From positions 1 to 64,000 of the forward strand of contig CALLBR010000001.1 of NCBI GenBank assembly GCA_937998865.1: a DNA stretch of 64,000 nucleotides, read 5' to 3'. Position numbers and translations under genes: made by a program. The notes beneath the pieces are model-generated. The model worked only from the letters and a program-made list of their open reading frames with translations. It was not told the origin of the DNA and did no database searches. Shown one piece after another: positions 59,347 through 64,000 of this stretch (its first letter is position 1; the number at the start of each line of letters is the position of its first letter). This DNA comes from an uncultured bacterium (GTDB lineage Bacteria; Nitrospirota; Thermodesulfovibrionia; Thermodesulfovibrionales; Thermodesulfovibrionaceae).

Positions 59347-59994
59347 ATGAGATTAGTATTCTTGGGTGCTCCTGGTGCAGGGAAAGGAACACAAGCAAAA
59401 AGGCTCGTTGAAAAATATGGTATCCCTCAAATATCCACTGGTGATCTTTTAAGAGCCGCAGTGGCTGCTGGAACTCCACTTGGAAAAGAAGCAAAGTCTT
59501 ATATGGACAGAGGAGAATTAGTACCTGACAGTGTAGTTTTAGGAATGGTAAAAGAGAGACTTTCTCAAGATGACTGCAAAAAAGGATTTATTTTAGACGG
59601 TTTCCCAAGAAATGTTACACAAGCAGAAGCTCTTGATAAAATGCTTGCTGAAATGAGCATGCCCTTAGATTTAGCCCTTAACTTAGATGTTCCCTTTGAG
59701 GATTTAATGAAAAGATTGACAGGTAGAAGAACATGTAAAGCTTGTGGACAAATGTATAATGTCTACTACAATCCTCCAAAGGCAGAGGGTAAGTGTGACA
59801 AATGTGGTGGAGAGCTCTTTCAAAGAGATGATGATAAGGAAGAAACAATCAGAAAGAGACTGGAAGTATATAAAGCACAAACAGAGCCTTTGATTGATTA
59901 TTACTCTAAAAAAGGAATTTTAAAAAGTGTGGAAGGCACAGGTAGTATAGATGAAATTTTTAATAATATCTGTGCAATTTTAGAAAAAAAGTAA
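59347..59994 (+). CDS. adk: Adenylate kinase with zinc-binding lid
   Basis: 215 residues. [14 protein letters not shown] (P-loop), [33 protein letters not shown], and a four-cysteine lid CKACGQMYN...CDKCGG (about 129-153), the zinc type of many Gram-positives and thermophiles. Converts AMP + ATP to 2 ADP. Placed 17 nt before sat, it can recycle AMP released by APS reductase. Confidence 0.97.
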
Positions 59995-60011: not shown

Positions 60012-61397
60012 ATGCCGGAAGTAAGAATTAAGACTCTTCCCCCACCACATGGTGGAAAGCTTGTTGAAAGGGTTGTCCGTGACCCCCAAATGGCAATGAA
60101 GTTAATGCAGAAATGTTCTGCAGTTTATGACATTAAGCCAACTCTTTTCAAAGGTAATCCTGTAAGGAATGTTTACAGAGAAATTATGTCAGTTTGTTAT
60201 GGTTTCTTCAGCCCTGTAGAAGGTTCCATGACAAAGGCTGATCTTGAAAGTGTTCTTGAGAAAAGAAGACTTACAAGCGGATGGGTATTTCCTTATCCCA
60301 TTCTTTTTGACATCTCAGAAGAAGACTTCAAAAAGCTTGGAGTTGGAGCAGGTGATTGGCTCTTACTGAGACTTAAAGGTGAACCTTTTGCAATTCTTGA
60401 GATTGAAGAGGTTTACGAAATCGTCCCAGGTGATGTAGCAGTAAGAACCTTTGGAACACCCGAGAAAAATCCAGAAGTTGTTAAAGTGCCTTTCGACCAG
60501 AAACATACAGGGTATAATATTTATTGTTCATTGAATCCTATAATACTTGCTGGTAAATATACCATTATTAATGAGCCTAAATTAAGACCGCCTTTTGATA
60601 GATTCTGGTATCCACCAAAGAGATGCAGAGAGGAATTTGAAAAAAGAGGTTGGACAACAGTTATTGCCCATCAGACAAGAAATGTCCCTCACACAGGACA
60701 TGAAGCCTTAATGAAAAATGCTGCTTACATTGGTGATGTAAAGCCCTGTGATGGTATTGTAGTTAATGCTATAGTTGGAGCAAAGAGAATAGGAGACTTC
60801 CCTGATGAAGCAATTGTTGAAGGGCATGAAATGGTTCATTTAGCTGGTTATATTAAACCAGAGCGTCATCTTGTAACATTCACACTTTGGGACATGAGAT
60901 ATGGTAACCCCATCGAGTCTCTCATTCATGCTGTAATTAGGCAAAATATGGGAATATCCTTCCACATGTTTGGGAGAGACCATGCAGCCTTAGGTGAATA
61001 CTATGATATATTTGCAACTCAAATTCTTTGGTCAAAGGGAATCCCAAGCTTCGGCTTTAATGAACCGCCTTACATGGTAGAAGGTGGATTTTATATTAGA
61101 CCTCAGAACATTGAAGAGTTCTGGTTCTGTCCAAAATGTAAAGAATTTGCCTATTCTGCTAATTGCGCACATAAAGGGATTTACTCGAGATATTCCGGAA
61201 GCTTCATAAGAGGTATTATTAATGAGGGAGTAATGCCACCACCAGAAATTTACAGACCAGAAGTTTATAAAGTAGTTGTAAAATGGTGGCAGAAGTTTGG
61301 ATATCCGTTTAATAACGAGAAATATCTCAAAGAGAGAGAGGAGAGATTAGAGGTTGATCTCCCTCACATGGAACTTCCAGCTCACTTAAAAAAATAA
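60012..61397 (+). CDS. sat: Dissimilatory ATP sulfurylase
   Basis: 461 residues. Activates sulfate with ATP to APS and PPi. Catalytic motifs QTRNVPHTGHE (about residue 221) and GRDHAALG (about 321), and a C-terminal zinc site CPKCKEFAYSANCAH (about 376-390), as in the homo-oligomeric enzymes of Archaeoglobus and other dissimilatory organisms; no APS kinase domain. Shine-Dalgarno AAAGGAGG. Followed by the unknown gene, aprB and aprA. Confidence 0.96.
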   Translation: MPEVRIKTLPPPHGGKLVERVVRDPQMAMKLMQKCSAVYDIKPTLFKGNPVRNVYREIMSVCYGFFSPVEGSMTKADLESVLEKRRLTSGWVFPYPILFDISEEDFKKLGVGAGDWLLLRLKGEPFAILEIEEVYEIVPGDVAVRTFGTPEKNPEVVKVPFDQKHTGYNIYCSLNPIILAGKYTIINEPKLRPPFDRFWYPPKRCREEFEKRGWTTVIAHQTRNVPHTGHEALMKNAAYIGDVKPCDGIVVNAIVGAKRIGDFPDEAIVEGHEMVHLAGYIKPERHLVTFTLWDMRYGNPIESLIHAVIRQNMGISFHMFGRDHAALGEYYDIFATQILWSKGIPSFGFNEPPYMVEGGFYIRPQNIEEFWFCPKCKEFAYSANCAHKGIYSRYSGSFIRGIINEGVMPPPEIYRPEVYKVVVKWWQKFGYPFNNEKYLKEREERLEVDLPHMELPAHLKK

Positions 61398-61412
61398 AGG
61401 AGGAGGTGAATA

Positions 61413-61814
61413 ATGGCTAAGTTTTTTGGTGTTGTAATTGATGAAACAAGATTAAAAGCAATAAAGGGTACACCACTGGAAGAAAAAGTAGAACCTATTT
61501 TTGGTGGAGCTCTAAAGAGATTAGTTCTTGAAGTTCCTGATGATTTGGGACAAAAAGTAATTGATCAGTTCACAAAAGCAAGGTTTGATGCAAGAGGATT
61601 TATTGAAGAAACTCCAGCTTCTTTTAAAAGGCTCGTTTTTAAGAAAATATTAGAGATGAAATCCTTAGGTCCAGAGGTTATGGAAGCTGCTTTAGCAGAG
61701 ATTCCTTCAATAAAAGATGATATTGCAAAGGAAGACAAAGAGCTTCCAGTTCCTGATATTGATATTAGTGATGTACTGGAATTACAAAAAAATCCAGCAC
61801 AAAAACCAGCATAA
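61413..61814 (+). CDS. Unknown 133-residue protein between sat and aprB
   Basis: Not a family I can name. Begins MAKFFGVVIDETRLKAIKG, followed by an alpha/beta-looking part with LVLEVPDDLGQKVIDQF and ARGFIEETPASFKRLVFKKIL, then an acidic, proline-containing tail (KEDKELPVPDIDISDVLEL). No cysteine at all, so no metal cluster; no signal peptide or membrane helix. Very good Shine-Dalgarno AAAGGAGGAGG, 15 nt after sat and 22 nt before aprB. I recall an uncharacterised small ORF between sat and aprBA in Archaeoglobus; relation not verified. Context says a role with sulfate activation or APS reduction. Confidence 0.85.
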   Translation: MAKFFGVVIDETRLKAIKGTPLEEKVEPIFGGALKRLVLEVPDDLGQKVIDQFTKARFDARGFIEETPASFKRLVFKKILEMKSLGPEVMEAALAEIPSIKDDIAKEDKELPVPDIDISDVLELQKNPAQKPA

Positions 61815-61836: not shown

Positions 61837-62265
61837 ATGCCAAGCTTTGTAATGGTTGAAAAGTGTGATGGCTGCAAAGCCCAAGACAAGACAGCATGTC
61901 AGTACATCTGTCCACATGATCTTATGACATTGGACAGAGAAAAAATGAAAGCCTACAATCAGGAGCCAGAACAGTGTTGGGAATGTTACAACTGCGTGAA
62001 AATTTGCCCACAACAGGCAATCGAAGTTAGAGGATATGCCGATTTCTTCCCCCTTGGTGCAAGCGTTATTCCCATGAGAGGTCAGGATGCTATTATGTGG
62101 ACAATTAAGTTCAGAAGTGGCGCTATAAAGAGATTCAAATTCCCAATAAGGCTCACACCCGAAGGTTACTGGAAAGCAGAAAACATTTATGAAGGATTAC
62201 CTGAGCCTGATTATTCAAAAATCAAAGGTCCTGGCTATTTTAATTATGAAGCCAGAAAAGAGTAA
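61837..62265 (+). CDS. aprB: APS reductase beta subunit
   Basis: 142 residues, ferredoxin-like with two [4Fe-4S] clusters: CDGCKAQDKTACQYICPHDL and CWECYNCVKICPQQAI, then the tail that wraps around AprA (YADFFPLGASVIPMRGQDAIMWTIKFRSG). Passes electrons (in most sulfate reducers from the Qmo complex) to the FAD of AprA. Shine-Dalgarno AAAGGAGG. Confidence 0.97.
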   Translation: MPSFVMVEKCDGCKAQDKTACQYICPHDLMTLDREKMKAYNQEPEQCWECYNCVKICPQQAIEVRGYADFFPLGASVIPMRGQDAIMWTIKFRSGAIKRFKFPIRLTPEGYWKAENIYEGLPEPDYSKIKGPGYFNYEARKE

Positions 62266-62290: not shown

Positions 62291-64000
62291 ATGGAAAAAG
62301 AGACTTGCACATTTTCATATTGTGAGAAACCAGAAGTAGTAGTTGTTGACACTGATCTTCTTATTGTCGGTGGTGGAATGGCTGCTTGTGGTGCTGCTTT
62401 TGAAGCATGCAGATGGGCTACACCAAAAGGACTTAAAGTAACAATGGTTGATAAAGCTGCAACTGATCGTTCCGGTGCAGTTGCTATGGGACTTAGTGCT
62501 ATCAATACCTACATTGGTGAGAATAAGGTTGAGGACTATGTAAGATATGTCCGTGCAGACCTTATGGGAATAATCCGTGAAGACTTGGTATATGATCTTG
62601 GAAGGCATGTGGACAATTCAGTTCATATGTTTGAAGAATGGGGACTTCCTATATGGAAAAAAAGTGACGATGGATGGTCCCTTGATGGTTTTCAGGCAAG
62701 GGATCAGGGTAAGCCAAAACTCAAGGATGGCGGTGTACCCTGCCGTTCCGGTAAATGGCAGATAATGATTAACGGAGAATCCTATAAGGTAATAGTAGCT
62801 GAGGCTGCAAAAGCAGCTCTTGAATATAACAGAAAGGCTTTAAACATTCCTCAAAACCTTTTTGAAAGAGTTTTCATAGTAAAACTTATTAAAGATGCAA
62901 AAGAGGATAATAGAGTAGCTGGTGCAGTAGGTTTTAGCGTAAGAGAAAATAAAGTATATGTCTTTAAGGCAAAGGCAATTCTTAATGCATCTGGTGGTGC
63001 TGTTAATGTATTCAGACCAAGATCAACTCGTGAAGGTCAAGGTAGAGCCTGGTATCCTGTCTGGAACGCTGGTTCTGGATACTATCTTGGAATGAGTGTA
63101 GGCGCTGAGATGACAATGATGGAAAACAGATTTGTTCCTGCCAGATTTAAAGACGGCTACGGACCAGTAGGTGCTTGGTTCCTCTTCTTTAAGGCAAAAG
63201 CAACAGATGCTCTTGGAAATGATTACTGTGCAAAAGACTGTTCAGAGTTCCAAGATGCTGTAAATAAATATGGAAAATGGGCTGAAGCTCTTGGCACAGC
63301 CATTAGAAACCATCTTATGATGCAGGCAATGAAACAAGGTAGAGGTCCCATCCTCATGAATACCCATACTGCTATGCAAGAACTTGCAAAGCAGATGGAT
63401 CCTAAGAGATTAAAACACCTTGAGGCTGAGGCATGGGAAGACTTCCTTGACATGTGTATTTCTCAAGCAGGACTTTGGGCAGCTCAGAATATTGAACCTG
63501 ACAAGAGTCCATCTGAGATTATGCCTACTGAGCCTTATCTCCTTGGTTCCCATGCTGGTTGCGCAGGCTTCTGGGTAAGCGGTCCTGGTGATATACCTGG
63601 AGCACCTGCAGAGTGGTTCTGGGGTTACAATAGAATGAGCACAGTAAAAGGTCTCTTTATGGCTGGTGATATTGTTGGTGCTTCCGGACACAAATTCTCC
63701 TCTGGATCCCATGCAGAAGGTAGAATAGCTGCAAAGGCAGCAATTGCCTTTATACTTGACAACCCAAGCTACACACCAGAATTAGCTGCCAATGTAGATG
63801 ATTTAGTTGCTGAAATGTATTTACCTTTTGAAATTTATGAAAAATATAAGACTTACTCTACAGATCCAGCAATTAACCCTTATTACATCAGACCAAATAT
63901 GTATCAAGCAAGACTTCAAAAGATTGCTGATGAATACTTCGGTGGAATCAGCACTTGGTATATGACCTCTAAGACAATGATTGAAGAAGGTCTTAAGAAG
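62291..64000 (+). CDS. aprA: APS reductase alpha subunit (3' end beyond window)
   Basis: Flavoprotein that reduces APS to sulfite and AMP. 570 codons are present, of roughly 660 expected, so the C-terminus is missing. Visible: the FAD loop DLLIVGGGMAACGAAFEA, RSGAVAMGLSAINTYIG, NASGGAVNVFRPRS, ENRFVPARFKDGYGPVGAWF, and the later FMAGDIVGASGHKFSSGSHAEGR. Begins with ATG at 62291 behind AAGGAGG, 25 nt after aprB. No premature stops. Whether the enzyme works in reduction or oxidation is suggested by overall context (reduction) but not proven here. Confidence 0.97.
   Translation, partial: MEKETCTFSYCEKPEVVVVDTDLLIVGGGMAACGAAFEACRWATPKGLKVTMVDKAATDRSGAVAMGLSAINTYIGENKVEDYVRYVRADLMGIIREDLVYDLGRHVDNSVHMFEEWGLPIWKKSDDGWSLDGFQARDQGKPKLKDGGVPCRSGKWQIMINGESYKVIVAEAAKAALEYNRKALNIPQNLFERVFIVKLIKDAKEDNRVAGAVGFSVRENKVYVFKAKAILNASGGAVNVFRPRSTREGQGRAWYPVWNAGSGYYLGMSVGAEMTMMENRFVPARFKDGYGPVGAWFLFFKAKATDALGNDYCAKDCSEFQDAVNKYGKWAEALGTAIRNHLMMQAMKQGRGPILMNTHTAMQELAKQMDPKRLKHLEAEAWEDFLDMCISQAGLWAAQNIEPDKSPSEIMPTEPYLLGSHAGCAGFWVSGPGDIPGAPAEWFWGYNRMSTVKGLFMAGDIVGASGHKFSSGSHAEGRIAAKAAIAFILDNPSYTPELAANVDDLVAEMYLPFEIYEKYKTYSTDPAINPYYIRPNMYQARLQKIADEYFGGISTWYMTSKTMIEEGLKK

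Follow-up and report, generated by a model that had tools for sequence, protein, structure and literature searches.

A small gene between sat and aprB

The window, by which we mean the entire 64,000-nt stretch of DNA analyzed, ends in genes for sulfate activation, among them sat (ATP sulfurylase [Sat]) and aprB and aprA (APS reductase). A gene for a protein of the DUF6955 family lies between sat and aprB. Pairs of Sat and DUF6955 fall into two types: type A, which is that of the window, and type B, which is that of most other families. The features of the region are as follows.

59347..59994, + strand: adk, adenylate kinase (ORF; upstream of sat in most related loci)
60012..61397, + strand: sat, ATP sulfurylase of the DUF6955-associated subfamily, type A (ORF, Sat models, Sat tree, subfamily profile)
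60672..60704, + strand: Sat motif QTRNVPHTGHE, diagnostic of DUF6955-associated Sats (motif comparison of Sats)
61266..61394, + strand: long Sat C-terminal tail after the RPEV motif (tail-length comparison of Sats)
61398..61409, + strand: ribosome-binding site of the DUF6955 gene, AGGAGGAGGTGA (read from the sequence; kept in relatives)
61413..61814, + strand: DUF6955 protein gene, ATG to stop, 133 amino acids (PF22271 match; dN/dS, 0.04 to 0.16)
61734..61811, + strand: type-A-specific C-terminal tail of DUF6955, DKELPVPDIDISDVLELQKNPAQKPA (nearly invariant in the genus, missing in type-B members; mostly low pLDDT)
61837..62265, + strand: aprB, APS reductase beta subunit (TIGR02060, 201.5 bits)
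62291..64000, continuing past the window end, + strand: aprA, APS reductase alpha subunit (ORF and neighborhood reading)

In the genome, qmoABC-like genes come after aprA, beyond the window. The window genome is close to Thermodesulfovibrio, as judged from relatives with 74 to 97% identity.

Rereading of the sequence bore out the first-pass annotation's description of the small ORF: it encodes 133 amino acids, none of them cysteine, behind a strong ribosome-binding site, with 15 nt between the sat stop codon and its ATG and 22 nt between its own stop codon and the aprB start. The protein (14.8 kDa; pI 5.0) also lacks Trp and His, and with an average hydropathy of -0.18 its composition is that of a soluble protein. 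The label "cysteine-free" fits the window protein but not the family, since several distant members contain Cys. The reading frame spans 134 codons, compared to a longest frame of 106 codons in 2,000 shuffles of the region; GC content differs clearly by codon position (0.56/0.32/0.17); and the dN/dS of 0.04 to 0.16 was obtained by comparison with relatives within the genus. Based on frame length, codon-position bias, and low dN/dS, we concluded that the ORF codes for a protein and is under strong purifying selection. A scan for promoter-like and terminator-like sites found no more of them in the region than expected by chance.

A Pfam scan identified the protein as a full-length member of PF22271 (DUF6955), with a score of 97.7 bits (gathering cutoff, 27 bits) over positions 4 to 91 of the 91-position profile. 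All the relatives that we collected also match PF22271. The protein had been put forward as unknown; in fact, its family is already catalogued in Pfam, but no function has been assigned to it, and the entry reads "family of unknown function." Apart from DUF6955, the Pfam scan at an E value of ≤1 gave only a subthreshold match to Lipoprotein_7, and no NCBIfam model matched the protein. Sequence searches of the PDB, whether the query was the protein or the family profile, returned chance matches only and no related solved structure. Neither a single-sequence query nor an alignment query found DUF6955 relatives in viral contigs. A literature search found no paper on DUF6955 and nothing relevant under AF1668 or THEYE_A1834.

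AlphaFold2 modeling of DUF6955 with nine genus-level sequences gave a best model with a pLDDT of 80, the other four ranging from 63 to 42. Foldseek found no significant match to this model in the PDB or BFVD; hence, no function could be read from the structure, and we make no claim based on the fold. The residues invariant across type A and type B (R13, G32, D59, I64, P68, and F76) form no evident catalytic set. Since the window protein also has no His or Cys, we favor a structural or regulatory role for DUF6955 over catalysis.

The first-pass annotation had pointed to a small ORF at this place in Archaeoglobus. An ORF at the matching operon position is indeed on record: a transcriptome study of A. 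fulgidus named a "Sat-ORF2-AprAB operon," found it to be highly expressed, like the rest of the pathway, and reported no function for ORF2 (PMC3949148). The likeness of ORF2 to DUF6955 is one of position between sat and aprBA, by which alone the two were compared. Both the family, as a catalogue entry, and an ORF at such a place in Archaeoglobus were thus already known.

Association of DUF6955 with one Sat subfamily

In a profile survey, DUF6955 was not restricted to one strain. Within the genus, 13 of 16 genomes had it, and those without it were only 56 to 72% complete. It was also present in 29 of the 177 genomes surveyed in the order and in 24 of 296 in the phylum sample, where each of the 24 had a single copy. 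In the same 296 genomes, AprB was over the cutoff in 126 and Sat in 183, indicating that sat-aprBA loci do not generally include DUF6955. In every readable neighborhood, the DUF6955 gene immediately followed sat in the same orientation. The gap between sat and DUF6955 was 1 to 33 nt in most loci, and that between DUF6955 and aprB was mostly 46 to 255 nt outside the genus. The earlier proposal of a conserved, unexplained member of the sulfate-activation operon is therefore upheld by a family that recurs next to sat, and we concluded that DUF6955 is a real, conserved, uncharacterized component of sulfate activation.

The survey covered one phylum; matches from outside it were limited to a Sulfolobus control and one mis-filed plasmid record (see below). 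Sulfolobus acidocaldarius, the sole match among 14 control genomes, has a Sat and no protein over the AprB cutoff. We tried NF003166 for typing the Sulfolobus Sat. This model also matches Sats without DUF6955 and hence does not discriminate between Sat subfamilies; the window Sat matches both NF003166 and TIGR00339.

We compared the Sats from 23 sat neighborhoods with DUF6955 and 59 without. The motif QTRNVPH[TV]GHE was present in all 23 of the former, whereas all 59 of the latter had QxRNPxHxxHE. The 15 DUF6955-associated Sats (of 23) that were placed on the Sat tree formed one divergent branch (SH-aLRT, 100), and the presence of DUF6955 required 1 change on this tree, compared to 14 with shuffled labels. 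The tail after the RPEV motif was 35 to 43 amino acids long in the DUF6955-associated Sats measured and mostly 11 to 28 in the others. Type-A Sats carry insertions of their own; the type-A DUF6955 tail, ELPVPDIDISDVLELQKNP, is almost invariant, and type B lacks it.

A profile built from the DUF6955-associated Sats separated the 177 genomes of the order cleanly: full-length Sats of the subfamily scored 610 to 809 bits and all other Sats scored at most 283, with no full-length gene in between. The subfamily Sat was found in 32 genomes, 29 of which had DUF6955, and DUF6955 was found in none of the 145 genomes without such a Sat (Fisher P of ~3e-30, which is descriptive only, since the genomes are related and kinship was not corrected for). 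The three remaining cases (G312, G350, and G034) are contig ends. The Sat itself is cut in G350 and G034, and the contig of G312 stops just inside the DUF6955 gene, the start of which is visible.

Two genomes of one genus, G021 and G043, each have two dissimilar Sats (loci L047/L048 and L083/L084). The ordinary Sat adjoins aprBA without DUF6955, and the subfamily Sat lies beyond the qmo-like genes in an hppA-sat-DUF6955 cluster. hppA encodes a proton-pumping pyrophosphatase (PF03030), and pyrophosphatase removes the other product of Sat.

Protein distances from 18 loci gave a Mantel r of 0.959 between DUF6955 and Sat, and r was 0.81 when type B was taken alone. We concluded that DUF6955 strictly depends on, adjoins, and codiversifies with one Sat subfamily.

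We interpret this association below as that of a subunit with its enzyme. The main rival is a Sat-specific assembly or stability factor, that is, a small chaperone for folding or metallation that stays outside the working enzyme, and we regard this as unlikely. The co-occurrence and codiversification data fit such a factor equally, DUF6955 is small and acidic, and the zinc-ligand pattern is kept in all 23 DUF6955-associated Sats versus 42 of 59 others. However, most Sats without DUF6955 thus keep the zinc motif as well and need no helper, and the Pfam scan revealed no chaperone signature.

Independence of DUF6955 from APS reductase

The association with Sat did not extend to APS reductase. When mapped onto the AprA tree, the DUF6955 label changed 9 times, and on the AprB tree it changed 7 times; in each case at least 5 changes were forced by supported branches. 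For the same 18 loci, the Mantel r was 0.064 between DUF6955 and AprA and 0.046 between DUF6955 and AprB (0.25 for AprA with type B alone). AprA and AprB, which are known partners and served as the positive control, gave an r of 0.925.

There are two deeply different types of AprA (1 and 2), and all four combinations with Sat/DUF6955 types A and B were seen. In every combination, the type of DUF6955 matched that of Sat. In six loci (L053, L058, L138, L142, L143, and L144), an AprA ~50% identical to the window's type is substituted, and the flanking genes are similar. Since AprA is replaced while its surroundings stay alike, these sequences suggest that aprBA has been exchanged independently of sat.

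These data bear on the possibility that DUF6955 is a passenger, with sat and DUF6955 transferred as one cassette, no functional contact between the products, and some other job for DUF6955 in sulfur or nucleotide metabolism. The patchy distribution of the Sat/DUF6955 pair across families makes its transfer plausible, and adjacency alone can give matched trees that mimic coevolution without protein contact. Yet aprB is equally adjacent in most loci and is unmatched, all Sats of the subfamily with readable downstream sequence keep DUF6955, even in rearranged loci, and purifying selection on DUF6955 is strong. We consider this explanation improbable.

Quite improbable, too, is the reading that the first-pass annotation favored, in which DUF6955 links Sat to AprBA and channels APS between them. 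The position of the gene between sat and aprB in most loci is in keeping with such a linker. However, DUF6955 tracks one Sat subfamily only and does not codiversify with AprA or AprB (r of about 0.05), AprA types swap freely while DUF6955 stays with Sat, and DUF6955 is absent from most of the sat-aprBA loci in which AprBA is otherwise similar. Moreover, the sat-DUF6955 pair is located away from aprBA in G021 and G043, and S. acidocaldarius has DUF6955 with no AprB over the cutoff.

A small nucleic-acid-binding regulator of sat operon expression is barely credible: a small operonic protein with Lys/Arg-rich stretches would suit that role, but DUF6955 is acidic (pI 5.0), matches no DNA- or RNA-binding family in the Pfam scan, and codiversifies with the Sat protein (r of 0.96) in a way that a regulator does not need. 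The broader suggestion of an assembly factor or regulator survives only in a narrowed form, as one that serves Sat.

A candidate partner of ATP sulfurylase

Sulfate respiration begins with the reaction of Sat, which consumes ATP, and this enzyme is regarded as a homo-oligomer that works on its own. DUF6955 follows one kind of Sat through evolution and not APS reductase; hence, this ATP sulfurylase probably has in DUF6955 a helper or subunit that has been overlooked. With fair but not full confidence, we take DUF6955 to be a dedicated, noncatalytic partner of this Sat subfamily, most likely a small second subunit. Both the binding and the mechanism are inferred. To our knowledge, the linking of DUF6955 to one particular Sat subfamily, and not to AprBA, is new.

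As a partner, DUF6955 would bind Sat physically and would stabilize it or tune its activity, e.g., by affecting how its product is released or how sensitive it is to PPi or APS; DUF6955 would modulate activity rather than merely help folding. The contact may be formed by the long Sat C terminus, together with the conserved DUF6955 tail in the window's genus. In solved structures of ATP sulfurylases from thermophiles, it is through domain III, at the C terminus, that the dimer is formed (PMC10322725), which makes the long Sat tail a candidate docking site. The type-A DUF6955 tail and the type-A Sat insertions are what a remodeled contact would predict. The sat and DUF6955 genes share one reading frame. 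An AlphaFold2 model of the read-through fusion, with both stop codons as residues, served as a stand-in for the complex and had a pLDDT of 33 and a pTM of 0.24, values too low for the model to be used.

A more specific version of the partner hypothesis is that the QTRNVPH[TV]GHE branch of Sat is a two-subunit enzyme, in which DUF6955 would complete or control the active site and thereby set the direction of the reaction, PPi sensitivity, or APS release. We put this forward tentatively, as possible but doubtful. If it is correct, studies of such Sats as single subunits would have missed DUF6955.

Three known systems invite comparison. DsrD is a small allosteric activator of the sulfite reductase DsrAB (PMC10591310). 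By analogy only, DsrD is likewise a small operonic protein that was long on record without a function and that serves one pathway enzyme; unlike DUF6955, it acts on another enzyme, the two share no sequence similarity, and activation is a feature of DsrD. Membership of DUF6955 in the DsrD family was rejected, with no DsrD match in the Pfam (E value of ≤1) or NCBIfam scans.

CysD-CysN is a heterodimeric ATP sulfurylase whose second subunit is encoded alongside (PMC10322725). The likeness is that of an ATP sulfurylase with a neighboring gene for a second subunit, a role that DUF6955 would play only by our reading. However, CysN is a large regulatory GTPase, whereas DUF6955 proteins have 100 to 133 amino acids and no GTPase domain. 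Sat is unrelated to CysD. With no GTPase domain match in Pfam and only 133 amino acids, the window protein was rejected as a CysN-type subunit.

AprM, a five-helix membrane protein that serves APS reductase, is encoded in the sat-aprMBA loci of purple sulfur bacteria (PMC3779200). It resembles DUF6955 in being the product of an extra gene between sat and aprBA and differs in that DUF6955 is soluble and follows Sat. Identity with AprM was rejected based on the hydropathy of DUF6955 (-0.18) and its phylogeny, which is independent of that of AprBA.

If a whole lineage of Sat depends on a small partner, a component is missing from the textbook schemes of sulfate reduction for these organisms, and kinetic data published for such Sats on their own may be those of an incomplete enzyme. 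DUF6955 would also gain a testable function. The matched type-A and type-B pairs, which have been exchanged among genomes irrespective of AprBA, offer natural controls for specificity.

Three records from the survey are unusual in their own right. A sequence deposited under the name "Klebsiella pneumoniae LZK001 plasmid unnamed2" (L064; NZ_CP061967.1, 1-21844) carries sat-DUF6955-aprBA together with genes for a solute-binding protein, LonB, and a member of the arginase family; it has the look of sulfate-reducer DNA that was mis-filed or is a contaminant. One bin (G345; 6% contamination) contains two sat-DUF6955-aprBA loci (L140 and L141), reflecting either a duplication or a mixed bin. Lastly, a bin titled Thermodesulfobacterium sp. 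(L046; CALLJG010000001.1) encodes Sat and DUF6955 proteins ~81 to 85% identical to those of the window's genus and is probably misnamed.
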